Positions 35,527-49,420 of a DNA stretch of 64,000 bases are shown here, piece after piece. Source of the stretch: Anaerolineales bacterium (lineage in GTDB: Bacteria; Chloroflexota; Anaerolineae; Aggregatilineales; UBA2796); assembly GCA_015075625.1 (NCBI GenBank), contig JABTTZ010000001.1:1178001-1242000 (forward strand), in the 5' to 3' direction. The notes beneath the pieces were generated by a model. It was given only the letters and a program-made list of their open reading frames with translations. It had not been told where the DNA came from and did not search any database. The translations under genes were made by a program, and so were the position numbers. The number at the start of each line of letters is the position of its first letter. Position 1 is the first letter of the stretch.

Positions 35527-36555
35527 ATGATCACAACCCTTCTCAATGCCCGCCTCGTCACGCCTGACGGGGCGATGTTGACCACGCTCCGTTTTGGCGG
35601 GCGTATCCTCGCCTGGGATGTGCGTCCTCAACGTGGGGACGCTGTGATCGATGCTGGGGGATGCTTTGTTTTTCCGGGGGTGATCAACGCCCACGATCAC
35701 CTTGAACTGAACCACTATCCGCGCACGAAATTTCGGGAGATGTACCCCAACGCCAGCCAGTGGGGAGATGAATTTTTGCCCCGTCTGAAAGACGAACCCT
35801 TCCGCACCTTGCGCCGGCTGCCCTTAGCTGAACAATGTCGCATTGGGGTGCTGAAAAATCTCCGCGCTGGCGTGACGACGATAGCGCACCATAATCCGCT
35901 TCATCGCCCGCTGCGGTGGCGCTATGGGCGCGTCGTTGTGCAGCGCTACGGGTGGGCGCACTCCCTCCATATGACGCCAAGTGAGGACATTCGCGCCCGC
36001 TATCGGGCAACGCCAGCCGATGCGCCCTTCATGATCCACCTTGCCGAGGGGACGGACGATCAAGCGGCGGGGGAGTGGGCGCGGCTGGATGTGTGCGGTG
36101 CGGCGGGGGCAAAGACGGTGATTGTGCATGGCGTGGGACTATCCGAGGTGGATCGGGCGGCGTCGATAGAGCGCGGCGTTGGGCTGGTGTGGTGTCCATC
36201 GACAAATCACTACCTTTTGGGGGCGACAGCACGGGTTGAGGCGTTCGCCGCAGCGGGCTTGCTGGCGGTGGGGTCGGACAGCCGTCTGACGGCGGATGGC
36301 GATTTGTTGGATGAACTGCGGGCGGCGGCGGCGACGGGACAAGTCACGGCGAACGCCCTTTTTCGGGCGGTGACGGTGGATGCGGCACGTCTGCTGCGGC
36401 TGCCGGATCGGGGGTCGCTGCTGCCCGGCTGCCGAGCGGATGTGGTGATCGCGGCGGCGGGGGAGGGCGATCCCTTTGCGGCGCTGCTTGGGCTGAGTCC
36501 GGCGGGGATTCAGGCGGTCTATATCGGCGGACGGAGGGTGACATTGGAGTCTTGA
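35527..36555 (+). CDS. Amidohydrolase-superfamily protein (cytosine-deaminase/TRZ-ATZ-like)
   Basis: A 342-residue metal-dependent hydrolase. The composite beta domain begins LLNARLVTPDG and closes GSLLPGCRADVVI. Barrel motifs include the first metal pair HDHLELN, His residues in IHLAEG and VIVHGVG, and the Asp in GSDSRLTADGDLLDEL. This order fits the ATZ/TRZ-like deaminase/amidohydrolase group. The substrate is not recognisable. It sits alone, 57 bp after the kinase. Confidence 0.82.
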   Translation: MITTLLNARLVTPDGAMLTTLRFGGRILAWDVRPQRGDAVIDAGGCFVFPGVINAHDHLELNHYPRTKFREMYPNASQWGDEFLPRLKDEPFRTLRRLPLAEQCRIGVLKNLRAGVTTIAHHNPLHRPLRWRYGRVVVQRYGWAHSLHMTPSEDIRARYRATPADAPFMIHLAEGTDDQAAGEWARLDVCGAAGAKTVIVHGVGLSEVDRAASIERGVGLVWCPSTNHYLLGATARVEAFAAAGLLAVGSDSRLTADGDLLDELRAAAATGQVTANALFRAVTVDAARLLRLPDRGSLLPGCRADVVIAAAGEGDPFAALLGLSPAGIQAVYIGGRRVTLES

Positions 36556-36586
36556 AAACAAAAAATAGCTAACACCATTCACCTCA

Positions 36587-36614
36587 TTGCTCTGCTCTAA
36601 AAATTCGCTACGAT
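36587..36614 (+). promoter_or_regulatory. Predicted promoter of the acyl-adenylate ligase / Crp operon
   Basis: TTGCTC (36587-36592), a 16-bp spacer and TACGAT (36609-36614) lie 50 bp before ATG 36664. Moderate match. Confidence 0.35.
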
Positions 36615-36663
36615 CTTCACCACAATAGACGAATACATTTCTTCCTCAGCCAAAGGTAGCTCG

Positions 36664-38433
36664 ATGACTGTGCAAACAACTCCCTCCGCCGACGTTGAGA
36701 CGCTTGCCAAGATCAGCGAGGCGCACACCTATCGTGGACGCCCGCCCACCGACTCGTTCGTTTCTTATCTCACACTGGGCAGCCTCCTTGCGGAGCGTGT
36801 CGCCGCAGCGCCCGATAAGACATGGCTGATTCACTACAACGCGGCGGGCGAGAGGGAATCCCTCACCTATGCCGCGTTCAGCGCCCGTGTGAACCAAGCG
36901 GCAAACTACCTCTACACCGATTTGGGTGTCCGTCCGGGGGATCGCGTGGCGACAATTGCCTACAACCACAGCGACACGGTGATCCTCTATTTTGCCTGTT
37001 GGCTGATTGGGGCGATGGTTGCCCCCCAAAATGTGACGGAGGACGACGCACGGATCGCTTTTATCTTGCGCAACAGTGAGGCGGTGATTGCCCTCGTCCG
37101 CGAGGAATATCTTGAACGGGCTGAACGCATCATTCGGGGGACGGCGGAGGGGCTTGGCGCAAGCAACATCCGCCAGATTGTCCAAGTGGGCGGCGCGGCG
37201 CGGACGGAGTATCGCCATTTTCACACAGAGAGCGCCGTTCATCTAACGACCTTCACCCCGCCCGCCGAGGTCAGCCGCGAGTCGGAAAGTTTGCTGGTCT
37301 ACACCAGTGGCACAACGGGCGCCCCAAAAGGTGTTGTCCTCACCCAGTACAACATGATGGCGGACGCGCACGGAATCAGCGCATGGCAAGGGATCACGGC
37401 AGAGCAGCGGCTTATGGCGGTGCTGCCTATTCACCATGTGAACGGGATCATCGTTACGCTGATCACGCCATTATATGTCGGGGGGAGCGTCGTCCTGAAC
37501 CGCCAATTCACAGTGTCGGCGTTTTGGTCACGAATCGCCCGCGAAGGCGTCCATATCGTCAGTGTTGTGCCGACGCTGCTCCAGTTTTGCTGTGAATATG
37601 CCGACGCCCAAGAAGGGGCGGGGAAAAGCATCTGGGGCGAGGGAGTCAGCCGCGCTGACCTAACGAATTTCCGCCACCTGATTTGTGGGGCGGGGACGCT
37701 GGCGGTGGCGCTGGTGCGGCGTTTTGAAGATCGCTTTGGGGTGCGCGTCCTGCATGGCTACGGTCTGAGCGAGACAACCTGCTATTCCTGCTACCTGCCG
37801 GTGGATTTGACGGATGAGGAACACGCCCACTGGCTGTACGAGTTTGGCTATCCAAGCATTGGCTCTCCGATTGGGGTGAACGAGATGGCGATCTTCGCCC
37901 CCGATGGGTCGGGCGTCATGCTCACTCCGGGCGAACGCGGCGAAATCTGTATCCGGGGGCATAACGTCATGCGCTGCTACTACCAGCGCCCCGATGCCAA
38001 CCGCGAAACGTTCAAGTTCGGCTGGTTTCGCTCTGGCGATGAAGGGTTTTATGAGGTTGATGAGAAAGGGCGGCAGTTTTTCTTCATTACCGGACGGTTA
38101 AAAGAACTCATCAATCGTGGGGGGGTGAAGTTTTCGCCTTTTGATATTGAAGAAGTTCTGCTCACGCTTCCGGGCGTCAAGGTTGGGTTGGCAGTTGCCT
38201 TCGAGAATGATTATTATGGGGAAGAAGTTGGCGCGTATGTCGTCCTTGAGGAAGGGACGGCACTGACGGCGGAGGCGGTGATTGCCCACTGCCGAGGGCG
38301 AATGTCGTTTGAGAAATCCCCGAAGGTCGTCCTGTTTGGGACGGAAGTTCCCGTGACGACAACGGGAAAATACCAACGGTTGAAGCTGCGCGATCTGTTC
38401 GCCGCCTATAAACCGACCCAATTTAAGCCATAG
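36664..38433 (+). CDS. AMP-dependent acyl-CoA synthetase/ligase family enzyme
   Basis: A 589-residue ANL-superfamily enzyme expected to adenylate a carboxylic acid and pass it to CoA or another thiol. Motif A3 is LLVYTSGTTGAPKGVVLT, A5 is GYGLSETT, A7 is RSGDEGFYEVDEKG, A8 is FITGRLKELINRGGVKFSPFDIEE and A10 is TTTGKYQRLKLR, containing the catalytic Lys. The acyl substrate is not predictable. The stop codon is 17 bp from the Crp/Fnr start, suggesting an operon. Confidence 0.88.
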   Translation: MTVQTTPSADVETLAKISEAHTYRGRPPTDSFVSYLTLGSLLAERVAAAPDKTWLIHYNAAGERESLTYAAFSARVNQAANYLYTDLGVRPGDRVATIAYNHSDTVILYFACWLIGAMVAPQNVTEDDARIAFILRNSEAVIALVREEYLERAERIIRGTAEGLGASNIRQIVQVGGAARTEYRHFHTESAVHLTTFTPPAEVSRESESLLVYTSGTTGAPKGVVLTQYNMMADAHGISAWQGITAEQRLMAVLPIHHVNGIIVTLITPLYVGGSVVLNRQFTVSAFWSRIAREGVHIVSVVPTLLQFCCEYADAQEGAGKSIWGEGVSRADLTNFRHLICGAGTLAVALVRRFEDRFGVRVLHGYGLSETTCYSCYLPVDLTDEEHAHWLYEFGYPSIGSPIGVNEMAIFAPDGSGVMLTPGERGEICIRGHNVMRCYYQRPDANRETFKFGWFRSGDEGFYEVDEKGRQFFFITGRLKELINRGGVKFSPFDIEEVLLTLPGVKVGLAVAFENDYYGEEVGAYVVLEEGTALTAEAVIAHCRGRMSFEKSPKVVLFGTEVPVTTTGKYQRLKLRDLFAAYKPTQFKP

Positions 38434-38450
38434 TGAGCCAGAGGGACATC

Positions 38451-39131
38451 ATGGGCTGCTCGTTGAATCATGCTTGGATTGCCCGTGTGCCAATGTTCAT
38501 CCGGCTCTGCACCAAAAGCCAGCAGGCGCTTGATGCCCATGTCCTGATTCGCGCTTACCCAAAGGGTGGGGCGATTTTCCTTGAAGGGCATCACCCCACC
38601 GGTTTGTGTATGGTCGTCTCTGGCTTGGTGCGCATTTACCGGATGTTGGAGGATGGGAAGATGCACGTGCATACCTACGTGCGTCCTTACGCCACCTGCA
38701 ATGTGATCGCCGCGCTGGATGGACGCCCCAACCCTACCAGCGCCGCCGCCATGACAGACACGCAGATTGGCTGGCTCCCCCGCGAGGCGCTGATCACGCT
38801 CATGGCAAATGATGCCGATTTGATGATGGCGTGTATCCGCCTGCTGACGCTTCAGAATCGGGAACTCATGGCGCGGGCGGATGATCTCAGCTTTCGCACC
38901 GTGCCAAGTCGTTTGGCACGGCTGCTGTTGCAGCGGGGCGGCTTTGAGGGCGAGGCGAATATCCCCCTCGACAGCCTCTCCCAAGACGAGATCGCAGCGG
39001 TTTTGGGAACAAGCCGCGAGGTATTGGGGCGGGCGCTACGCCAACTCTACGATCTCGGTCTGATGCGGCGGGAGGGGCGGAAATACGTGATCATTGATCG
39101 GGCGGGCTTGGAAACATTAGCGGGAGAGTAG
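38451..39131 (+). CDS. Crp/Fnr-family transcriptional regulator
   Basis: A 226-residue regulator. The N-terminal cyclic-nucleotide-binding-type beta barrel (~20-125; GGAIFLEGHHPTGLCMVVSGLVRIYR) is followed by a dimer helix and a winged helix-turn-helix (~150-226; LSQDEIAAVLGTSREVLGRALRQLYDLGLMRREG). ATG 38451 has AGAGGG upstream; the frame is also open from a GTG at 38433 that overlaps the previous stop. No Fnr-type Cys cluster is seen, so oxygen sensing through an Fe-S cluster is unlikely. The effector is unknown. Confidence 0.9.
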   Translation: MGCSLNHAWIARVPMFIRLCTKSQQALDAHVLIRAYPKGGAIFLEGHHPTGLCMVVSGLVRIYRMLEDGKMHVHTYVRPYATCNVIAALDGRPNPTSAAAMTDTQIGWLPREALITLMANDADLMMACIRLLTLQNRELMARADDLSFRTVPSRLARLLLQRGGFEGEANIPLDSLSQDEIAAVLGTSREVLGRALRQLYDLGLMRREGRKYVIIDRAGLETLAGE

Positions 39132-39166
39132 ACGCCACGATCTGCACCCTGCATCCTTGTGATGAG

Positions 39167-39196
39167 TTGATTCCCCGTTAGGAATCACGCTACACT
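39167..39196 (+). promoter_or_regulatory. Promoter with embedded inverted repeat upstream of the CHAT-FGE gene
   Basis: TTGATT (39167-39172), an 18-bp spacer and TACACT (39191-39196). A perfect inverted repeat GATTCC-N6-GGAATC (39169-39186) overlaps the -35 and spacer, a common position for a repressor operator. An AGGGAGA ribosome-binding site precedes ATG 39238. Confidence 0.5.
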
Positions 39197-39237
39197 CTCC
39201 CTAAGTTCGCTCTCCGCACCCTCATAGGGAGAACCGC

Positions 39238-41550
39238 ATGGCATTGGACTACCTTAATTTTGACCTTCGTTTGGATGATCATCCCCTCGGCGGTTATACG
39301 GTTGCGGTGGTCAATTCCCCCGCTGGTGAAACATCTGGCACATTTGATCTCCAATTTCCCGATCTTGAAAACCTCCTTCTGCGCCTTGAAAATGCGGTGA
39401 TAAAGGGGTCACAACGGGGCGGCGCACGACGGCGACTTTACTCTCCAGAAGAAAAGACCGTGCAAGATTTTGGTCATCAGTTGTTTCAGACATTGTTTCC
39501 CGCCGATATACGAAGTCTCTATGATCAATCGCGTATCCTTGCCCAGAACGAGAGTAAGGGACTTCGCCTTCGCCTGCGGATCAATTCCCCCAAACTGAGC
39601 GCCATGCCATGGGAATTTCTTTACGATCCGCGTGGGGCGGGACGGTACCTGAGTCTTTTCAACGATACACCCCTTATCCGCTATTTAGAAACACCTTACC
39701 CCGTTACCCCTCTCACCATTCCAGCCGGTGAGCCATTACGCATTTTAGGGATGATTGCCGCCCCAACGGATCAAGAGGCATTGGATGTAGACGGGGAACG
39801 CGCCCATATTGAGGACGCCTTATCTGATGTATCGAATGTTGCTCTCACATGGGTCTCTGGGGGGACTGTTCGAGCCCTGACTAACGCCCTTGATGCGGGG
39901 CAATGGCATATCTTTCATTTCATTGGGCATGGGTTGCTCAATACCCGAACAAAGGAGGGCATGATTGCCCTTTGCAACACGCAAGGAAAAACCCATCCGT
40001 TCAGTGCCAGCCAATTGGCAACATTACTTGCGGATCACCAACCCTTGCGCTTTGCCTATTTGAATTCTTGCGAAGGGGCAAAAAGTGACAGTGCTGATTT
40101 GTATTCCAGCACCGCCTCTATTCTTGTGGGGAGCGGTTTGGCGGCAGTGTTGGCAATGCAGTATGAAATTTTTGATGAGGGCGCCAAATGCTTTGCCAAA
40201 CGCTTCTACGAGGCGTTGGCAAACGGCGATCCTGTGGATCAAGCGGCAACTAAGGGGCGTAAGGCAATACGGAGCGAGGCGGGCAGCATCATGGAATGGG
40301 GGACGCCCGTCTTGACGATGCGCAGCCCCGACGGGGTGTTGTTCACGGTGCGTCCCGCCCAGAAACCCGCCCCCTCCCCGCTTGCGGGGAGGGATGAAGA
40401 CCCCGTCGCGTTGTTCAATGAGGCAAGCGCCTGTGTAGAGGGCGAGCGCTACAGCGAGGCAACTGCCCTCTACGAACGGCTTTTGGGGTGGGCACCTCCC
40501 TTCCGTGAGCGGCAGGTACGCGCCCTCTTGAAGCAGGCGGAAGAACTTCTTGCCGAACAAGAGAAGGCACGCGCTGCGCAGAAACGGCTGGAAGAAGCAG
40601 AAGAACGTTTTTCGGACTTGGAAACCTTCGTCCAGCTTGCCCGAACAGAGAGCGCCAAAGCGCACGCCCGCGAGGAGATTCAGCAGTTCTTAGCGGATTA
40701 CCCCGAATACAAGACCGATGCCAACGTCTTGGCGCTGTGGGAGAGGGTGAAACCGCCCCCACCGCCGAAACCCCCCGAACCCGCCCTGGGCACGCGGATG
40801 ACCGACGAGAAAGGGGTAATCATGGTCTACGTCCCGCCGGGGACGTTCCAAATGGGGAGCAGCAATGATGCTGACGAGCGGCCGATCCATTCGGTGACCA
40901 TTGAACGGGGCTTCTGGCTTGACCTGACGCCGGTGACAAACGCCTCCTATGCCCAATTCATCAAGGACGGCGGCTACAAAACGGAAACATACTGGACGCC
41001 CGGCGGCTGGGCATGGCGGAAAACGGCGGACAAGACCGCACCGAGGGACTACGACGACTTCACCGCTCCCCAGCAGCCCCGCGTGGGGGTGACATGGTTC
41101 GAGGCATACGCCTACTGCCAATGGCGGGAAGGTCGCTTGCCCACCGAGGCGGAATGGGAATGGGCAGCGCGGGGAGAAAGGAGTCTCGTTTACCCTTGGG
41201 GAAATGACTTCAAGCGCGATAGCAGCGTGGTGATCTATGGTGAGAATTCTGGCAGAAAAAGCCACCCTGTGGGGGAGGGGATACGGGTGGCGGGGGCGTC
41301 ATGGGTGGGGGCGTTGGACATGAGCGGGAATGTGTGGGAGTGGATAAGCAGCCTCTACACCCCATACCCTTACGACGGCAATGACGGGCGCGAGGCGGAC
41401 ACCGGAGACCGCACGGATGTTCTGCGCGTGCTGCGGGGCGGGTCTTGGGGCGACAGTCAGGACAACGTTCGCGCTGCGAATCGGTTCAGGGTCGACCCTG
41501 CCAACCAGTTCAACCGTTGGGGGTTCCGTCTTGCCCGCTCTTACAGATAG
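39238..41550 (+). CDS. CHAT caspase-like protease fused to an FGE/C-type-lectin-fold domain; candidate DGR target protein
   Basis: A 770-residue protein. Residues ~1-375 form a CHAT peptidase with the catalytic dyad His231 (HFIGHG) and Cys278 (YLNSCEGA) and the characteristic WGTPVLTMRSPDG end. Residues ~390-520 are TPR/coiled-coil-like (ALFNEASACVEGERYSEATALYERLL), with a Pro-rich hinge (PPPPPKPPEP). Residues 529-770 are a formylglycine-generating-enzyme/sulfatase-modifying fold (VPPGTFQMGSS, GRLPTEAEWEWAARG, MSGNVWEW, VLRGGSW...GFRLARSYR). No sulfatase gene is nearby. The C-terminus has the layout of DGR variable proteins. It is probably a hypervariable sensor controlling a protease; that role is inference. 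Confidence 0.88.
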   Translation: MALDYLNFDLRLDDHPLGGYTVAVVNSPAGETSGTFDLQFPDLENLLLRLENAVIKGSQRGGARRRLYSPEEKTVQDFGHQLFQTLFPADIRSLYDQSRILAQNESKGLRLRLRINSPKLSAMPWEFLYDPRGAGRYLSLFNDTPLIRYLETPYPVTPLTIPAGEPLRILGMIAAPTDQEALDVDGERAHIEDALSDVSNVALTWVSGGTVRALTNALDAGQWHIFHFIGHGLLNTRTKEGMIALCNTQGKTHPFSASQLATLLADHQPLRFAYLNSCEGAKSDSADLYSSTASILVGSGLAAVLAMQYEIFDEGAKCFAKRFYEALANGDPVDQAATKGRKAIRSEAGSIMEWGTPVLTMRSPDGVLFTVRPAQKPAPSPLAGRDEDPVALFNEASACVEGERYSEATALYERLLGWAPPFRERQVRALLKQAEELLAEQEKARAAQKRLEEAEERFSDLETFVQLARTESAKAHAREEIQQFLADYPEYKTDANVLALWERVKPPPPPKPPEPALGTRMTDEKGVIMVYVPPGTFQMGSSNDADERPIHSVTIERGFWLDLTPVTNASYAQFIKDGGYKTETYWTPGGWAWRKTADKTAPRDYDDFTAPQQPRVGVTWFEAYAYCQWREGRLPTEAEWEWAARGERSLVYPWGNDFKRDSSVVIYGENSGRKSHPVGEGIRVAGASWVGALDMSGNVWEWISSLYTPYPYDGNDGREADTGDRTDVLRVLRGGSWGDSQDNVRAANRFRVDPANQFNRWGFRLARSYR
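41431..41550 (+). other. Candidate DGR variable region (VR) at the 3' end of the CHAT-FGE gene
   Basis: Codons 732-770 (LRGGSW to the stop). Sites that are Asn-rich in DGR template-encoded versions of this fold read GGC, GAC, AGT, GAC after SW and TTC, AGG, GTC, GAC and TTC, AAC, CGT further on. Most end in C, as AAC codons would after mutation of their adenines. The framework (NVRAANR, WGFRLA) is conserved. The matching template repeat is not in the window. Confidence 0.65.
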
Positions 41551-41607
41551 TTCTGATTCCTGATCTTCTGTTTTCTGAATTCTGATTTTCTGTTTTCCTG
41601 TGGGGGT

Positions 41608-41626
41608 TCGGGGGCGAAGCCCCCGA
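41608..41626 (+). promoter_or_regulatory. DGR-like hairpin/cruciform downstream of the variable region
   Basis: TCGGGGGC (41608-41615), loop GAA, GCCCCCGA (41619-41626) form a perfect 8-bp GC-rich stem 57 bp after the target-gene stop. In characterised DGRs a short hairpin of about this size with a small purine-rich loop lies downstream of the VR and promotes retrohoming. The stretch 41551-41600 before it is a degenerate TTCTGATT repeat. Confidence 0.6.
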
Positions 41627-41664
41627 TCAAATTTTTTGGCTTTTGAGGGGCCCACCGGGTTGTT

Positions 41665-41879
41665 ATGAAAACCTACACAAATTTGTATCCGCGTATGCTG
41701 AATTTCAACGCCATACTCCGGGCGTGGCGCAAGGCACGGCGGGGCAAACGGTACACCCATGCCGCTGTCGAATTTGAACAAAATCTGGATAGCGAATTGA
41801 TCGCCCTCAATCGGGGGTGCAGGGGAGGTTAGACGCAGGCGAATGGTTATTAGCAGATTGTGTGAGGAATTCCGGCTAA
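41665..41879 (+). pseudogene. 5' remnant of a DGR-type reverse transcriptase
   Basis: ATG 41665 opens a 55-codon frame reading MKTYTNLYPRMLNFNAILRA, then WRKARRGKRY and FEQNLDSELIALNR, and stopping at 41830-41832. This matches the N-terminus of reverse transcriptases of the DGR / group-II-like type. A frameshift near 41825 restores RLDAGEWLLADC, resembling the next conserved step (usually L-x-x-G-x-Y), before a stop at 41877-41879. None of the catalytic RT motifs (for example YxDD) survives. The gene is cut to about one sixth. Confidence 0.7.
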
Positions 41880-41951
41880 TCCGCCGTATAATAAAGCGGT
41901 TTGGGCTAGTCACGTTCGCGCTGCTGACACATTTTTTGAGGTTGGTCATCC

Positions 41952-43373
41952 ATGTCCCCTATTGGCACATCAGAATCCCCCCTGCGGGTAGCGATCATCG
42001 GGTCGGGACCCTCTGGGTTCTACGCCGCCGAACATCTTTTCAAACAGACAGATCGCATCATTGAGGTGGACATGTATGATCGCCTCCCCACCCCTTATGG
42101 TTTGGTGCGCGGTGGGGTTGCCCCTGATCACGACAAGATCAAGACGGTGACGAAAGTCTACGAAAAAATTGCCGCCAACCCCCATTTTCGCTTCTATGGA
42201 AACGTTGAATTCGGGCGCGACCTGACCCATGCCGAGGTGAGCGCTCACTACCACGCCGTGATCTACGCCGTTGGCGCACAGACAGACCGCGCGATGGGCA
42301 TCCCAGGCGAAGACCTCCCCGGCAGCTACGCCGCGACGGAATTCGTTGGCTGGTATAACGCCCATCCCGATTTCAGGGATCACACGTTTGATTTTAGCGC
42401 CACCGCCGTCGCCGTTGTGGGGAATGGGAATGTAGCGATGGATGTGGCGCGTATCCTTGCCAGTGGCGAGGGCGAACTGCGCGGCACGGATATTGCTGAT
42501 TATGCGCTAGAGGCGCTCTGCAACAGCCGCGTCACCGATATTTACCTGCTTGGGCGGCGCGGACCCGCACAGGCGGCGTTCACTCACCCAGAGTTGAAAG
42601 AATTTGGCGAGCTTGCCGAAGCCGATGTGATCGTCGCCCCCTCTGAGGCGGCGTTAGACCCGCTCAGCGCTGACGACCTCAAACGAACGCCGAATACCCT
42701 TGCCGAGAAAAATCTCGCCCTGCTCAAAACGTTCAGCGTTCGCCCGCCTTATGGGAAACCGAAACGCATCCACATGCGCTTTTTGGTCTCCCCGCTGGAA
42801 CTTCGCGGGAATGGCAAGGTTGAGGAGATCGTTTTGGTGAAGAATGTCCTTACTGCCGCGCCGGATGGATCGCTCCGCCCGAAGGCGACGGAAATCACCG
42901 AGACGCTCAAAGTTGGGATGGTCTTTCGTTCCATCGGCTATAAGGGAGTCCCTCTGCCCGATGTGCCGTTTGACGCCAAAGCCGCTGTGATTCCCAACAA
43001 AGCGGGGCGCGTCATCGATCCGGCAACGGGTGCGGTGCGGCGCGGTGACTATGTGGTGGGGTGGATCAAACGGGGTCCCTCCGGCGTGATTGGGACGAAT
43101 AAGCCGGATTCAGTCGAAACGGTGAACTGCCTCTTGGAAGACCTTGCCAGCCTTTCGCCGCTCTCGCCGCCGACTTCGGGAGCTACCCACCGCGAGGCAG
43201 TGGAGGCGCTTTTGGCGGCGCGTCAGGTTGCTTACGTCACCTTTGAGGATTGGCAACTGCTTGACCAAGCAGAAGTGGCAAACGGGGCAGCAATGGGGCG
43301 TCCTCGCTTGAAATACGCTCGCATCCCCGATATGTTGGCGGCGATCCGTGAACGCAAAGCAAAGCGTGCCTAG
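41952..43373 (+). CDS. Ferredoxin/adrenodoxin-NADP+ reductase (FprA-like)
   Basis: A 473-residue FAD flavoprotein. The N-terminal FAD Rossmann motif is VAIIGSGPSGFYAAEHL and the diagnostic PYGLVRGGVAPDH follows. The NADP(H) motif VVGNGNVAMDVAR and the C-terminal YVVGWIKRGPSGVIGTNK complete the adrenodoxin-reductase/FprA signature. It transfers electrons between NADPH and ferredoxin in the cytoplasm. A possible -10 box (TATAAT, 41887-41892) precedes it without a clear -35. It is followed 21 bp later by the GT39-like gene. Confidence 0.92.
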   Translation: MSPIGTSESPLRVAIIGSGPSGFYAAEHLFKQTDRIIEVDMYDRLPTPYGLVRGGVAPDHDKIKTVTKVYEKIAANPHFRFYGNVEFGRDLTHAEVSAHYHAVIYAVGAQTDRAMGIPGEDLPGSYAATEFVGWYNAHPDFRDHTFDFSATAVAVVGNGNVAMDVARILASGEGELRGTDIADYALEALCNSRVTDIYLLGRRGPAQAAFTHPELKEFGELAEADVIVAPSEAALDPLSADDLKRTPNTLAEKNLALLKTFSVRPPYGKPKRIHMRFLVSPLELRGNGKVEEIVLVKNVLTAAPDGSLRPKATEITETLKVGMVFRSIGYKGVPLPDVPFDAKAAVIPNKAGRVIDPATGAVRRGDYVVGWIKRGPSGVIGTNKPDSVETVNCLLEDLASLSPLSPPTSGATHREAVEALLAARQVAYVTFEDWQLLDQAEVANGAAMGRPRLKYARIPDMLAAIRERKAKRA

Positions 43374-43394
43374 ACAAGGGACTATTAGCGACTT

Positions 43395-45284
43395 ATGACC
43401 TTTTCACAATCAACCACCTCGCCCATGACGGGTGAAACACCTGTCAACGGGCTAATCAGCATCCGTCTTGATGTGCTGATCATCGCCGTGCTGCTTGCCG
43501 CCGCGTTTGTCCTTCGCTTGCCAAACGTAGATGTGATTCCCTTGAATAACAGCGAAGCGCGAGAGGCGTTCGCCGCCTACAAGGTGCTTAGCCCCACCTT
43601 CCCGGGCGAGACGCCCACAAGCCGCAACCCGCTTTTATTTGCCGCCACCACCCTGAGTCTTACTATTGGCGGGGCAGAACATGGCGCAGCGCGGCTGCCC
43701 TCGCTGCTCATCGGGCTTGTCCTCACCGCTATGCCCTATCTGTTTCGGCGCTGGTTGGGGGCGACCCAAATGGTCATTTTGATCGCCTTACTTGCCTTTT
43801 CACCTGTCGTTATGTTGGCGGCGCGGGGGATGCAAGGGGCGCTCTGGTCAGCGGTATTGGCGCTGCTGACGGTCTATGGCTTTGGGATGTATGCCGAGGT
43901 GCGCCGCGCCGGATATGCATCCTTAGGGGTGGTGGGGTTGCTGCTGCTCATTTTTGCCGCCGAACCCGCCGGATTTCTGACCGCCGCTGGCTTGGGTGTT
44001 GGGTTGGTGTTCGCCCTTGCCTCTGGGGAAGACCGCACGCCCGGCGCAGTCGTGGGGGATGTACTGAAAGGCTTTCCACGCGGCGCGGCGTTGTTTGCCG
44101 CCCTCACTGCCCTGATCGTTGTGGGATCAGTCTTTCTGATCGCCCCTATGGGGTTGCAGAGCCTCAGCGAATCGATCAACGCGGGGCTGCGTGGGCTTTC
44201 CGAACGCCCACCCGGTGTTCCTGCCATACTTCCTCTGATCATCAGCCTGACCTATGAACCCGTCTTATGGGTGATGGGCTTAGCCGGAGCATATATCGTC
44301 CTGTTTGGGGAGGGGGCAGCCCACCAACGCGGACAGGAACTGCTTCAGCGCGGCTTGTTGGGGTGGTTTGTCGCCTCTGTCGCGTGGGCGCTTGCCTATG
44401 GCGGCACAGAGTCCGGTCATGCCTTGTGGCTGACACTCCCCCTTGCTGGTTTGAGCGCCGTTGCCATTGAGCGGGCGCTGACGCCTGTCCAAGACCCCTT
44501 CTGGCGCGTCCCGCGTTGGGCAGTATGGGTGCAGGCAGTGGCAATGGTCGCCCTGCTGATGATCCTCCTCGTCAACCTTGCCTTTGTCGGGCGGGATATT
44601 GTAAGCGTCCCCGCTGATTGGGCGCCGCCGCTGACCGCCGATACCGTCCGGCGGGCGCTGCTGATCCCGATTGGCTTGCTGCTATCGGTGATCACCTTCT
44701 TCCTAGCGGGAAGCATCTGGGGAGCGCGGACGGCATGGCGCGGGGCGGGCTTAGGACTCCTGTTGTTCCTCGGCGGCTATGGAATCAATGCTGGCTTTGG
44801 CGCGGCACTTGTCCGCCCCGACGACCCCCGTGAATTATGGCATATCCGCCCATCCTCGCTCAACCTGAATCTTTTGGAGGATGCGCTGGAAACAGCCTCC
44901 TTGCGGGCGACGGGGAAACGCCACGAGGCAGAGGTTGTCGTTTATGTGCCGCCCGGAATGCGTGACTACACCTACAGTCCGCTGGCGTGGACACTTCGCC
45001 ACTTCCATAAGCTGCGCTATGTTCAAGACATTACGCCGGCAATCACCGCCCCTATTGTGATCGCCCGCAAGGAGGACACCCTGCCTGATTTAGGTGGGCA
45101 GTACGTGGGGCAAGATTTCGTCACATGGCGAACGTGGGAGGTGGGGACGATGCAGTATTGGGATATTTTCCCCTGGCTCTATAACCGCCTGACCCGCGCC
45201 CAACCCACCGACGGCGAACGGGTGATTCTCTGGGTGCGTAGCGATGTTTACGGGGTGGGCGATATCCCCGGTGCGGGACAATAA
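43395..45284 (+). CDS. Polytopic GT39/PMT-like glycosyltransferase (TIGR03663-like)
   Basis: A 629-residue membrane protein with about 12 hydrophobic segments and an extracytoplasmic C-terminal domain (EVVVYVPPGMRDYTYSPLAWTLRHF). The first loop holds NNSEAREAFAAYKV, where PMT-family GTs carry their acidic catalytic residues. It probably transfers sugar from a polyprenyl-phosphate donor to a cell-surface acceptor. It precedes a polyprenyl diphosphate synthase, which would supply the lipid carrier; that link is inference. Confidence 0.75.
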   Translation: MTFSQSTTSPMTGETPVNGLISIRLDVLIIAVLLAAAFVLRLPNVDVIPLNNSEAREAFAAYKVLSPTFPGETPTSRNPLLFAATTLSLTIGGAEHGAARLPSLLIGLVLTAMPYLFRRWLGATQMVILIALLAFSPVVMLAARGMQGALWSAVLALLTVYGFGMYAEVRRAGYASLGVVGLLLLIFAAEPAGFLTAAGLGVGLVFALASGEDRTPGAVVGDVLKGFPRGAALFAALTALIVVGSVFLIAPMGLQSLSESINAGLRGLSERPPGVPAILPLIISLTYEPVLWVMGLAGAYIVLFGEGAAHQRGQELLQRGLLGWFVASVAWALAYGGTESGHALWLTLPLAGLSAVAIERALTPVQDPFWRVPRWAVWVQAVAMVALLMILLVNLAFVGRDIVSVPADWAPPLTADTVRRALLIPIGLLLSVITFFLAGSIWGARTAWRGAGLGLLLFLGGYGINAGFGAALVRPDDPRELWHIRPSSLNLNLLEDALETASLRATGKRHEAEVVVYVPPGMRDYTYSPLAWTLRHFHKLRYVQDITPAITAPIVIARKEDTLPDLGGQYVGQDFVTWRTWEVGTMQYWDIFPWLYNRLTRAQPTDGERVILWVRSDVYGVGDIPGAGQ

Positions 45285-45304
45285 GCCCTTTTTCAACCCC
45301 CCAC

Positions 45305-45359
45305 CCCCGCCGACGGTAAACCATCGGCTCGGATTAACCAGCCCTTCAAGGCTTGAAAT
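45305..45359. repeat. Degenerate copy of the palindromic intergenic repeat
   Basis: CCCGCCGACGGTAAACCATCGGCT followed by CCAGCCCTTCAAGGCTTGAA keeps the two palindromes with compensating changes. The rest of the 45285-45577 gap holds only the promoter below. Confidence 0.5.
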
Positions 45360-45495
45360 GCGCTCTCACCCCCCTCAACCCACAAAGGGCGAGAGGGAAT
45401 CCATAGTTGCCACACCTTCGTAGGGACGTGCTACAGCGCGTCCGCGCCTTCGCCTGTGAAGGGGCGGTAATGGGAATTTCTTTCCCCATCTTGTG

Positions 45496-45525
45496 TTGCC
45501 ACCTTCTCGGTTTTCGTGTTACAAT
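45496..45525 (+). promoter_or_regulatory. Predicted sigma70-type promoter of the polyprenyl synthase gene
   Basis: TTGCCA (45496-45501), an 18-bp spacer and TACAAT (45520-45525). Each hexamer differs from consensus at one position. Confidence 0.55.
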
Positions 45526-45577
45526 ACATTCAGAAAGTTCTAAAAGACACAAATAGAGCATGAGGGGCGAGGGCGTC

Positions 45578-46504
45578 ATGGACATGGAACACGCACTACA
45601 AGCCGTTGAAGCAAAGATGATCGCCAGCGTCGGCAGCGATGTGCCTGTGCTGCAAGACGCCAGCCGTCACATCCTTCAGGCAGGGGGCAAACGGATGCGC
45701 CCGCGCCTTGCCATGCTCGCTTATGAGTCGGTTGGGGGGCGTGAGCGGATGGAGGTTGTGCCGATTGCCGCTGCTGTAGAACTCGTTCACACGGCGACGC
45801 TCGTCCACGACGATATTAACGATCACGGCGTGACACGGCGCGGACGCCCAACAATCAACAGCATTTGGGGGCGCACCTTTGCCCTCCTAACGGGTGATTT
45901 CCTCTTTACAAAAGTCTATGAGTTGATGGCGCCCTACGGGGATTTGAACATCACCTTTGCCCGTATGACGAGCGACCTTGTGGAAGGAGAGACGCTCCAA
46001 GCCCACGCCGCCAAGACAGGGACGCTGGATCGGGAAACGTATGCCCGTATCATTGCCAAGAAAACAGCGTCACTTTTTGCGGGGGCGGCAAAGATGGGGG
46101 CGATCCTCGGCGGGGGGACGCCCGCCCAAGTCGATCTTTTGGAGCAGTATGGTTTCAACGTTGGCTTGGCGTTCCAGATCACCGATGACATTCTTGACCT
46201 GATCGCCGACAGCGAAACATTGGGCAAAACCGCCGGAATCGACCTTGCACAGGGACGGGGCTTTGCGATGGCGTCGCTCAATGGGACGAGTGGGACGGGG
46301 GTTGCCGTTGCCGAGGCGGTTCAGGACGATGCGGTGACTGCCTTCAAACGGAAGTTACTGACCGGGAATTACATCCAAGAGGGGCAAGAAAACGCTCGTC
46401 AGTTGGCGTTGATCGCAGAAATGAGCCTTAGCGGACTACCAGAAACGCCCGCCCGTGATTTGCTCTGCGATTTAGCCCGACAGGCAGTAGATCGCACGTA
46501 TTAG
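45578..46504 (+). CDS. Polyprenyl diphosphate synthase (trans-isoprenyl, IspB/HepT-like)
   Basis: A 308-residue enzyme that condenses isopentenyl diphosphate onto allylic diphosphates to make the chain of quinones or lipid carriers. The first aspartate-rich motif is DDIND (78-82, LVHDDINDHGVTRRGRPT) and the second DDILD (203-207, FQITDDILDL), with GGKRMRP near the N-terminus. ATG 45578 has GAGGG just upstream; ATG 45560 does not. Chain length cannot be set reliably from sequence. Confidence 0.92.
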   Translation: MDMEHALQAVEAKMIASVGSDVPVLQDASRHILQAGGKRMRPRLAMLAYESVGGRERMEVVPIAAAVELVHTATLVHDDINDHGVTRRGRPTINSIWGRTFALLTGDFLFTKVYELMAPYGDLNITFARMTSDLVEGETLQAHAAKTGTLDRETYARIIAKKTASLFAGAAKMGAILGGGTPAQVDLLEQYGFNVGLAFQITDDILDLIADSETLGKTAGIDLAQGRGFAMASLNGTSGTGVAVAEAVQDDAVTAFKRKLLTGNYIQEGQENARQLALIAEMSLSGLPETPARDLLCDLARQAVDRTY

Positions 46505-46568
46505 GGTGCGGGAGAGCAGGGCAAAGGGTGAGGACATCCAAACCCCACAGGGGTGGTCAACCATAGGT

Positions 46569-46590
46569 GGGCGCACACACGGGTGCGCCC
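46569..46590. terminator. Hairpin between convergent genes
   Basis: GGGCGCAC-ACACGG-GTGCGCCC, a perfect 8-bp stem in the 127-bp gap between the convergent polyprenyl synthase and a membrane-protein gene. No T-run, so bidirectional termination is only suggested by position. Confidence 0.35.
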
Positions 46591-46631
46591 CTACTTCCAG
46601 AGCTGCCATTTCCTCTTGTCTCCGATTGCGC

Positions 46632-47024
46632 TCATCGAAGAATTTGCCAACCAAGAAGAATCAAGATCGTCCAAACGAGGGCGAAAACCGGCGGGATGGG
46701 CAAGGCAAACCCCCACCAAAAAATGCCACCGATAGGGACGAGTACAAGCGCCAGAACCGCCCCAGACATGTAAGCATCCCACAACAACTGACCCGCCACC
46801 ACTTCGAGAACGCACACCAAAAGAAAGCCAGCCAAGAGAGGGACGGTTGTCTGTATCCCAATCCGCTCAAACGGTCCCCGTCCATAGGCGGGAAACCCCA
46901 TGACGATAGGAATGGGGCGTCCGCTCAGCAGATTCCGAATGGCAGGGAAACAGAAGATGCCAAGTCCGGCGGCAATAAACCAATGAAGTCCGGCGGCTAG
47001 GCGCAGCAGCGTTAGCTCATTCAT
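46632..47024 (-). CDS. Small four-TM hypothetical membrane protein
   Basis: A 130-residue hydrophobic protein with about four transmembrane helices (LHWFIAAGLGIFCFP, VPLLAGFLLVCVLEVVAG, AVLALVLVPIGGIFWWGF, VFALVWTILILLGW). Composition and length look real, but I recognise no family. It faces the polyprenyl synthase tail to tail. Confidence 0.65.
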   Translation of the reverse strand: MNELTLLRLAAGLHWFIAAGLGIFCFPAIRNLLSGRPIPIVMGFPAYGRGPFERIGIQTTVPLLAGFLLVCVLEVVAGQLLWDAYMSGAVLALVLVPIGGIFWWGFALPIPPVFALVWTILILLGWQILR

Positions 47025-47109
47025 GGTGATACCGCCTTACCGCACCTTAAAATGGCAGGTGATCTCATTTCTGGGACATGTTGTAGAAAGGGCATGGGGG
47101 GATAGGGGT

Positions 47110-47160
47110 GGGCGACTCCCTCTAGAGTCGCCCTTACAATAGTTCTAGAGCGCTCTAGAA
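47110..47160 (-). terminator. Hairpin and 18-bp perfect palindrome at the LysM gene 3' end
   Basis: TTCTAGAGCGCTCTAGAA (47143-47160) is a perfect palindrome that contains the LysM stop codon. Beyond it, GGGCGACTC-N6-GAGTCGCCC (47110-47133) forms a 9-bp stem. Together they look like a termination region for the - strand gene. Confidence 0.45.
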
Positions 47161-47805
47161 CGCTGTATTGCGGAAGGTGTTATAGCCAAAGTAACCGGAG
47201 ACAGGGTCTTTCACCAGCACGGTGGGGTAAGCCCCGACCAAGGGGACACCGCCCGCATCGTTCGGAACGGTGAAGTTTGTGCTGAGCGTGCCATCAGCAT
47301 TCGTTGTCGCTGTGGCAGAGGCTGTCGCCGCGTAGTTTGTCCCCCATTGGGTGATAAAAATCTGCACCTGACGAGGACCGGGGAAGTTCGTTCCGGTGAT
47401 CACAATCGTGTCACCCGGACGGGCAAAATAGGTGTTGAAGTGGATGCGCGGGTAAATCCCATAGGGCGGGAAGAAACTCGCCGGAGGGGGTGCGGGCGGC
47501 AGCGGTGTGGCGGGCGGCAGCGGTACAACAATGGGTGGGTTTGCCGGAACAGCGCCGGGTGGGTAGCAAATAATTTGTCCAACGTAAATCTGGTTCGGGT
47601 TGTAAATACCGTTGATGTGTTGGAGAACTGTCCATGTCACATTGTAGGCAAGACCGATGCGGAACAGGTTATCTCCGGGCTTCACCACATGGTAGGTTGT
47701 GCAGCGCTGCCCGGGGTGCGCCTTGACAGGGTTGCTAACAGAAAGTACGCTCAAGGCGGCAACAACAACAACCGCCATGAGAATAAAACGGGTGATACGG
47801 TTCAT
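47155..47805 (-). CDS. Secreted LysM-domain protein
   Basis: A 216-residue exported protein. Residues 1-30 are a signal peptide (NRITRFILMAVVVVAALSVLSV...KAHPG). A LysM domain follows at ~38-82 (YHVVKPGDNLFRIGLAYNVTWTVLQHINGI), then a Pro-rich linker (~84-112) and a C-terminal beta domain (~118-216; RPGDTIVITGTNFPGP) like an IPT/TIG-type fold. LysM binds peptidoglycan or other GlcNAc polymers, so a cell-wall-bound location is likely. Confidence 0.85.
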   Translation of the reverse strand: MNRITRFILMAVVVVAALSVLSVSNPVKAHPGQRCTTYHVVKPGDNLFRIGLAYNVTWTVLQHINGIYNPNQIYVGQIICYPPGAVPANPPIVVPLPPATPLPPAPPPASFFPPYGIYPRIHFNTYFARPGDTIVITGTNFPGPRQVQIFITQWGTNYAATASATATTNADGTLSTNFTVPNDAGGVPLVGAYPTVLVKDPVSGYFGYNTFRNTAF

Positions 47806-47965
47806 AGCTAATTTCGGCGTACCCCCCCATTCGTGTTATTTGGGGAACGCCATTCTCCTTTCTGAAAAAAAAGAACGCGCCTCTTTACACAGTGTATCCA
47901 TTCTTCATTTTCCGGCAACCACGAATTTTGCACAACAGACCGTTTTTCGTTAGAAAAAAGAAACT

Positions 47966-49420
47966 ATGCTGCTACTTCAACTGATCTATGCCGCCCTCAT
48001 CGCCCCACTTATGATCTATGCAATGGGGGTCTTTTACCTTGTGTTTGTCTACTTCCGTCCGGCGCGGCGGGTAATCGTACCGCACTACTTTGCCGAAGAT
48101 GACCTGCCTTTGGTCACTGTTCAACTTCCGCTCTACAACGAACGGTATGTTGTTGGGCGTTTGCTTGATGCCGTCGTCCGTTTGGATTACCCTCGTGATC
48201 GCCTTCATATTCAAGTTCTCGATGATTCGACGGACGAGACAACAGGAATCGCCGCCGGGCGTGTGCGGGCGCTGCGTGCGGCAGGGGTTCACATTGATCT
48301 GCTGCACCGGACGGATCGGGCGGGATTCAAAGGCGGGGCATTAGGGGAGGCGCTGGCGCATACAGAAGGCGGATTTGTCGCTATTTTTGACGCTGATTTC
48401 ATCCCCCCAACGGACTTTCTGCGGCGGACGATTCCTATCCTGCTGAGTGACTCCCGCTGTGGGGTGGTGCAAGGGCGCTGGGCGCATCTGAACGCGGAAG
48501 AAAACATCCTCACGCGCTGTCAGGCGCTCATGCTTGATGGGCATTTCGCCATTGAGCAGCACGCCCGCAGCAAAGGCGGGCTGTTGTTCAGCTTTAATGG
48601 CACGGGCGGCGTCTGGCGGCGGGCGGCGATTGAGGATGCTGGCGGCTGGCAAGGCGATACCTTGACCGAGGATGCCGATCTGAGCCTGCGGGCGCAGATG
48701 CGCGGGTGGCAGTTCGTCTTTCTGCCAGACCTTGCCACAGCGGGGGAGGTCTCCCCAGTGATGAGTGGATTCAAAGGGCAGCAAGCGCGATGGGCAAAAG
48801 GCACAACCCAAACGCTGTTCAAACTTGGGAGGGCGCTGCTCCGTTCGCCGCTCACCGCCCGTCAAAAGATCATGGCGATTTTGGGGGTGCTGGCGTACCC
48901 TATTCAACCGTTGGGCTTGGCGCTCTTGCTAATCATGCCGCTTCTGATGGTCAGTGGGGCGCTGCGCGATATGCCCGTTGCGCCGTTGGGGGTGGCTGGT
49001 CTTGCCGTTCCGCTGCTTTACATCCTCGGACAGAAAGCACTTTATGGTGCATCGTGGGCATGGCTGCGTGGTGCAGCGCGGCTGCCGCTCCTCTTGATTC
49101 TGAGCAGTGGTATGGCGTTGAATAACACAGTTGCCGTTCTAAGTGCCTTTCGGGGAGGGGTGGGGGTGTTCCAGCGGACGCCGAAATTTGGCGATGCTCC
49201 TTCAGGGAAGGGCTATACCATTCGCCCTGATCTGACGACCATTGGGGAGTTTTTCCTTGGTGTCTACAGTGTGTGTGGGGCGGTGTTGGCGTGGCGCTAT
49301 GCCCCCGGTCTGATCGTCTATTTTGCCACCTACGCAGTCGGCTTTTTTATGGTATCGGGGTGGACACTTGCCGATCTATGGTCGGCACGGCGTCATATGT
49401 TTGGCAAACTTACCTCATAG
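47966..49420 (+). CDS. Processive family-2 glycosyltransferase (cellulose/mannan synthase-like)
   Basis: A 484-residue membrane GT2. TM1 lies at 1-28, then the catalytic domain with LPLYNERYVV, DDSTDET, the DAD motif (AIFDADFIPP), TEDADLS and the QxxRW signature (QQARW) of processive synthases. At least four C-terminal TM helices (IMAILGVLAYPIQPLGLALLLIMP and on) would form the translocation pore. The polymer is unknown; it could be a beta-glucan or mannan. No PilZ domain is attached. Confidence 0.88.
   Translation: MLLLQLIYAALIAPLMIYAMGVFYLVFVYFRPARRVIVPHYFAEDDLPLVTVQLPLYNERYVVGRLLDAVVRLDYPRDRLHIQVLDDSTDETTGIAAGRVRALRAAGVHIDLLHRTDRAGFKGGALGEALAHTEGGFVAIFDADFIPPTDFLRRTIPILLSDSRCGVVQGRWAHLNAEENILTRCQALMLDGHFAIEQHARSKGGLLFSFNGTGGVWRRAAIEDAGGWQGDTLTEDADLSLRAQMRGWQFVFLPDLATAGEVSPVMSGFKGQQARWAKGTTQTLFKLGRALLRSPLTARQKIMAILGVLAYPIQPLGLALLLIMPLLMVSGALRDMPVAPLGVAGLAVPLLYILGQKALYGASWAWLRGAARLPLLLILSSGMALNNTVAVLSAFRGGVGVFQRTPKFGDAPSGKGYTIRPDLTTIGEFFLGVYSVCGAVLAWRYAPGLIVYFATYAVGFFMVSGWTLADLWSARRHMFGKLTS

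Follow-up and report, generated by a model that had tools for sequence, protein, structure and literature searches.

The variable end of a CHAT-FGE gene and the probable remains of its DGR in an Anaerolineales genome

The last 40 codons of a CHAT-FGE gene in the window (the whole stretch of 64,000 nucleotides analysed) raise the question of whether they were rewritten by a diversity-generating retroelement (DGR) and, if so, whether they are still being rewritten. In a DGR, the RNA of a template repeat (TR) with its spacer is copied by a reverse transcriptase (RT) that makes errors at adenines, and the cDNA replaces a variable region (VR). DGRs have been studied as live mutators, and their loss and the fixing of their products are little documented. 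A reading made from the sequence only had seen a signature of NNC codons here and had interpreted it as adenine-specific DGR diversification. We find that the interpretation was right but that the codon statistic alone is no evidence for it. We also find, a point missed in that reading, that the system looks dead here because the RT is a 55-codon remnant, the assembly holds no intact DGR RT and the template lies inside another gene. It is very probable, in our judgement, that the last 40 codons are a DGR VR whose machine has decayed and which is most likely frozen, and that the gene-template fusion on another contig (C3, below) arose by VR × TR recombination.

The variable region and its template

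The target gene and the parts of its VR are as follows.

39238–41550, + strand: CHAT-FGE gene, putative DGR target (variable protein); 770-aa ORF with PF12770 and PF03781.
41424–41540 (5' limit approximate), + strand: VR with conserved 5' and 3' homology to the template, from alignment to the C3 template; layout as at the intact loci of relatives.
41449–41520, + strand: adenine-diversified core, from the same alignment; 16 of 31 template adenines and none of 41 other sites changed.
41536–41540, + strand: VR-type junction CGCTC (CGACC in template copies), as in 6/6 loci with VR and TR aligned.

A family search of the 770-aa protein gave a CHAT domain (PF12770, E = 6.6e-25) and a C-terminal FGE-sulfatase domain (PF03781, E = 2.4e-54), and the FGE part matches 2y3c, a DGR variable protein of solved structure (sequence match, E = 2.5e-15). 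Judged by these last two matches, the gene whose 3' end carries the VR would encode a CLec/FGE-type fold. The variable codons listed earlier between the RGGSW and GFRLA blocks are present at their positions in the gene, but the list is incomplete, as CAG (41458), GCC (41500), CGT (41515) and TGG (41518) have also changed, and it includes one codon, GAC at 41461, that is identical to the template codon. The NNC signature as such is at chance level: 17 of the last 40 codons have this form, as do 228 of the remaining 730 (p = 0.096, Fisher's one-sided test). Among the 731 stretches of 40 codons in the gene, 126 contain at least 17. We have therefore dropped NNC enrichment as evidence, and since the NNC content is unremarkable, a template is needed to test the DGR reading.

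None was found in the window by a TR/VR scanner run over 36001–48000, and nowhere in the whole window does a 24-codon stretch hold more than 7 AAY codons. The template was located instead by a DNA search of the organism's own genome (G000; an unclosed assembly of 4.68 Mb in 5 contigs, with 98.46% completeness), in a sister CHAT-FGE gene on C3 (797-aa ORF, C3:377151–379544) whose ungapped alignment with the window gene spans 1150 bp (95% identity). Opposite 41449–41520 the C3 copy reads AAC AAC AAT CAA GAC AAC GTT CGC GCT GCG AAT CGG AAC AGG AAC AAC CCT ACC AAC CAG AAC AAC AAT AGG, with 12 AAY codons, which is what a typical template would look like. The earlier suggestion that AAC or AAT template codons had been randomised at their adenines alone, and that an alignment should show differences only at template A, is supported by this same-genome template: all 16 differences fall at A (16/31), and the other 41 sites are unchanged throughout (hypergeometric p = 7.3e-8). 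The changed adenines have become G in 9 cases, T in 6 and C in 1, and the codons GTT CGC GCT GCG AAT CGG, singled out earlier as an unchanging framework, are the same in template and VR. In the 1053 bp just upstream of the VR, 9 of 38 differences fall at an A of the C3 copy. When the VR of the window gene or either of the two other VRs of this genome (below) was used as a mock template, no A bias appeared with any of the three.

On C3 the template is fused in frame to the end of the sister gene, directly followed by the TR-type junction CGACC (CGCTC at the end of the window VR) and by a spacer RNA that looks intact; the template lies inside a target gene and the spacer after it. Given this junction, the spacer RNA and the lack of a hairpin, we reject the idea that C3 holds a VR into which an unmutated copy had recently homed. 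The protein predicted from the ORF of the fused gene has unmutated Asn-rich loops and a new C-terminus, PCTYETSVS. Over the part shared with the window gene upstream of the VR, dN is 0.032 and dS 0.055, values that suggest at most weak constraint on the C3 gene and its putative product. An FGE gene at C1:656964–657626 has an end (NNGDDSVRAANRLRYAPTNEDLIAGFRCARSYRSP) that resembles the template protein, with neither hairpin nor TTCTG tract, and is perhaps an undiversified relative of the DGR targets.

Two other VRs were found in this genome. The end of a kinase-FGE gene on C2 (C2:807536–809788; kinase by its ORF sequence alone) differs from the template at 13 of 31 A and 9 of 41 non-A sites (p = 0.06); these 9 non-A differences, with an A bias that alone is not significant, count against our main reading. 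The second belongs to a broken FGE gene on the minus strand of C3 (FGE match C3:496662–496880, VR C3:496579–496693) and differs at 18 of 31 A and 8 of 41 non-A sites (p = 0.0008). Because these two VRs have several non-A differences in common, for instance GAG for CAG and GTT for AGG, a second, slightly different template was probably once present and is now lost. At the framework codon AAT (41479–41481) both adenines are kept in all three VRs, despite frequent change of template A elsewhere; selection or a context effect might account for this.

Remains of the machinery

Three further features follow the stop codon of the window gene.

41551–41601, + strand: TTCTG-rich tract from stop to hairpin; common to the C2 target gene and seen 3' of VRs in relatives.
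41608–41626, + strand: GC-rich hairpin with 8-bp stem and GAA loop, candidate target-site cruciform; fold −10.8 kcal/mol, z −2.9, with a copy after the C2 gene.
41665–41829, + strand: truncated DGR RT, N-terminal 55 codons with no catalytic core; from PHROG 1423 and the RTs of relatives.

The block of TTCTG tract and hairpin recurs 3' of the C2 gene with 94% identity over 79 bp. Our genome has 17 FGE matches, and in the 16 genes taken for this control (the pseudogene was left out) tract and hairpin follow only the window and C2 genes. The window VR combines a junction unlike that of the template with a downstream hairpin, an arrangement to be expected of a DGR VR given the junctions of the 6/6 aligned loci. 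The terms IMH and cruciform come from work on BPP-1 (PMC3240598), and the hairpin here is known from its sequence alone.

The RT frame begins MKTYTNLYPRMLNF, matches PHROG 1423 (reverse transcriptase, E = 1.5e-9) and is 54% identical to the N-terminus of the DGR RTs that relatives have in intact form. The frame ends ahead of all catalytic motifs, with weak homology continuing to ~41877 through three stops. A search of the 98.46%-complete assembly with a relative's full-length DGR RT found no intact enzyme: the matches were this N-terminal fragment, a C-terminal piece (residues 275–348) at C2:738651–738872, and two RTs of other classes. The latter (PF00078 matches at C3:394346 and C1:342158) were rejected by class as enzymes acting in trans. 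One is a retron-like RT in C3:392001–398000 (L019 2100–3287, minus strand; best PADLOC model RT_XIII, E = 4e-140), and the other a 1078-aa RT in C1:340001–346000 (L022 493–3729; best model RT_UG35, E = 1.3e-195) that is a candidate defence RT. The retron-like gene lies ~15 kb from the C3 template. The accessory protein Avd was not found in the window or in four other loci of this genome (L018, L020, L066 and L174).

A repeat of ~167 bp is present in at least 40 copies, 91–99% identical, in this genome, and two copies sit at DGR relics: one at C2:809930–810106 (L020 4930–5106), between FGE gene and spacer of the C2 locus, and one at C2:738904–739067, after the C-terminal RT piece.

With these remains in view we can weigh whether the gene ends are simply those of diverging FGE paralogues, with a DGR-like codon pattern arisen by chance. 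Among the 16 FGE genes of this genome, ends vary widely where DGR hallmarks are lacking, and NNC enrichment alone is not significant. (A separate FGE alignment took 15 of the 19 first-listed sequences, leaving out L085, which has a stop in the range, L098, L108 and L114.) Set against this are 16 of 16 changes at A and 0 of 41 elsewhere (p = 7e-8), the RT remnant, the hairpin, the TR-type junction and the spacer RNA. Changes that run in one direction and at A only, together with the remnant of the RT, refute chance divergence, to which we give practically no credence.

Intact loci, spacer RNA and fusions in relatives

Intact systems show what has been lost. In G011, G017, G106 and G114 (same order) an FGE gene with VR, an RT, Avd (PF22296), a TR and the spacer RNA lie on one strand, and at the first three of these loci 22/22, 16/16 and 20/20 of the mismatches in 70 bp are at TR adenines. 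G021 and G036 have another order (VR, TR, RT), with 18/18 and 14/15 at TR adenines. The VR ends in CGCTC and the TR in CGACC at all six loci with both aligned, out of nine RT-bearing spacer loci; L200, L201 and L204 are not counted, no VR being found in the piece examined. Among the best 80 of 575 matching loci, a + strand scan for TR/VR pairs found them in 4 and tblastn found a DGR RT in 6. An RT match at E ≤ 1e-15 occurs in 6 of 61 genomes (our own and 60 relatives), that of G015 being weak (27% identity), and in none of the 10 other genomes of the genus or family.

The ~100 nt 3' of the C3 template are conserved with relatives and form a predicted structure of two helices, in which 56/56 pair cells are kept in four sequences and both partners have changed in 4 of the 14 pairs; controls with slid partners kept 34–41%. 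Rfam at the gathering threshold gave no match over six loci. A covariance model of the spacer found 17 loci in 12 of the 154 genomes of the order, including the four sequences used to build it. At nine an RT adjoins (some of these loci are cut by contig ends) and at eight there is none. The model finds DGR loci independently of the RT, so that RT-less cassettes, which are missed by surveys based on the RT, can be counted.

The RT-less loci are of several kinds. In two of the eight, C3 of our genome and G098:C44, an FGE gene is fused directly to a TR-type end and spacer; the C3 fusion keeps the template, whereas in G098:C44 a diversified VR is followed by CGACC and the spacer. These are the two products expected of a crossover between directly repeated VR and TR, before or after the variable core. 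The best match to a DGR-like RT in G098 has 29% identity, in a 627-aa frame, and no such RT was found there. In G096 and G074 an IS200-like transposase gene (Y1_Tnp, a Pfam match below the curated cut-off) lies between FGE gene and spacer. At G017:C35 (L196 2871–6361) a 909-aa gene with an FGE end, Avd, an AAC-rich template and the spacer occur with no RT, while an intact DGR RT is on another contig of G017; this cassette is a candidate for action in trans. G089:C177 and G092:C197, the latter near a contig end, have a spacer with no FGE gene or RT detected.

The G017 case bears on whether the DGR of our genome might likewise be active in trans, its RT and Avd residing on an unassembled piece, a plasmid or a phage and using the C3 end as template to diversify the window and C2 genes. 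The C3 template and spacer look intact, the kept structure of the spacer RNA counting against long decay, junction and hairpin are both retained at the window VR, and an RT might have escaped an assembly that is unclosed, at 98.46% completeness. But the full-length search returned a pair of RT fragments plus the two RTs from other classes, no Avd lies near the relics examined, the RT beside the VR is truncated and the third FGE target is a pseudogene, and we regard present activity in trans as unlikely. Less likely still is an assembly error that joined VR to TR at an intact locus and so created the apparent gene–template–spacer fusion on C3, with the relic in the window either real or misassembled in the same way. 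VR and TR are repeats, but the contigs are 0.8–2.1 Mb long, exact stretches common to VR and TR are only short, a fusion of the same type occurs in the unrelated assembly of G098, and the other relics decayed by different routes.

We therefore return to a decayed DGR as the preferred reading. The sequences themselves show the A-specific divergence, the relics, the fusion and the lack of an intact DGR RT in the assembly, and from these we reconstruct the probable history as follows. In the past, TR RNA with its spacer would have been copied by the RT with errors at A, and the cDNA swapped in up to the CGCTC junction, so that loops of the CHAT-FGE protein, which may serve in ligand sensing, were rewritten by adenine-mutagenised cDNA from the template repeat. 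The directly repeated VR and TR could then have recombined, removing hairpin, RT and Avd and yielding the C3 arrangement in one step. At present the VRs are most likely frozen because no enzyme was found. Several relics of a single system survive in this genome together with a preserved template, so that the history of each frozen VR can be read.

Known systems and a possible off switch

The system shares with the DGR of Bordetella phage BPP-1 the A-specific change from TR to VR, the VR at the 3' end of the target and the GC-rich hairpin after it (PMC3240598). The BPP-1 target is a tail fibre and here it is a CHAT-FGE protein; the RT is broken in our genome, unlike that of BPP-1; and the hairpin, whose loop is GAA, is found ~70 bp beyond the VR, where the phage set of that paper has 4-nt GRNA loops at 4–34 bp.

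Other parallels are the conflict-system DGRs of multicellular bacteria such as Thiohalocapsa PB-PSB1 (PMC10907252). There too FGE/CLec targets are joined to CHAT, kinase or NACHT parts, and a CHAT-FGE target would fit a sensor in such a system; one C-terminal module is shared by different N-termini, reported as module shuffling; and MITE-like repeats degrade DGR parts, with the RT deleted in some strains. Thiohalocapsa PB-PSB1 has many intact DGRs according to that paper, whereas our assembly has none, and its template is fused to a target gene.

In cyanobacteria, remote or remnant variable proteins (Nostoc all3226, Anabaena sp. 90) similarly show VR homology with no nearby RT. PMC7517822 reports dispersed targets of kinase type, transposases of the IS200/IS605 type in the neighbourhood of DGRs and a degraded cassette with only an RT close to transposases, and suggests that components were removed. 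Nostoc PCC 7120, by the same account, keeps two DGRs elsewhere, while here several relics show how parts were lost. Unlike the cyanobacterial cases, the order studied here shows both products expected of VR × TR recombination. Such collapse as a route of DGR loss is not described in the literature searched, which covers few subscription journals. Recombination between TR and VR is called rare in a reconstituted DGR (PMC12875486), which counts against the crossover reading.

A more tentative idea, which we consider rather doubtful, is that VR × TR recombination is a recurrent one-step off switch for DGRs in the order. Hairpin, RT and Avd would be removed, and a pristine template (as on C3) or one variant (as in G098) left joined to the spacer RNA. 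If common, such collapse would give bacteria a simple means of ending the diversification of a sensor with a single variant retained. The ends would be reusable as template, the collapsed gene lending its coding end to a DGR RT that arrives later, and silencing would possibly be reversible. At three loci (L033, L034 and L035) a similar block (GTGGGGACACCGGGGCGC or close to it) lies just upstream of the TR and is possibly the 5' part of the template RNA.
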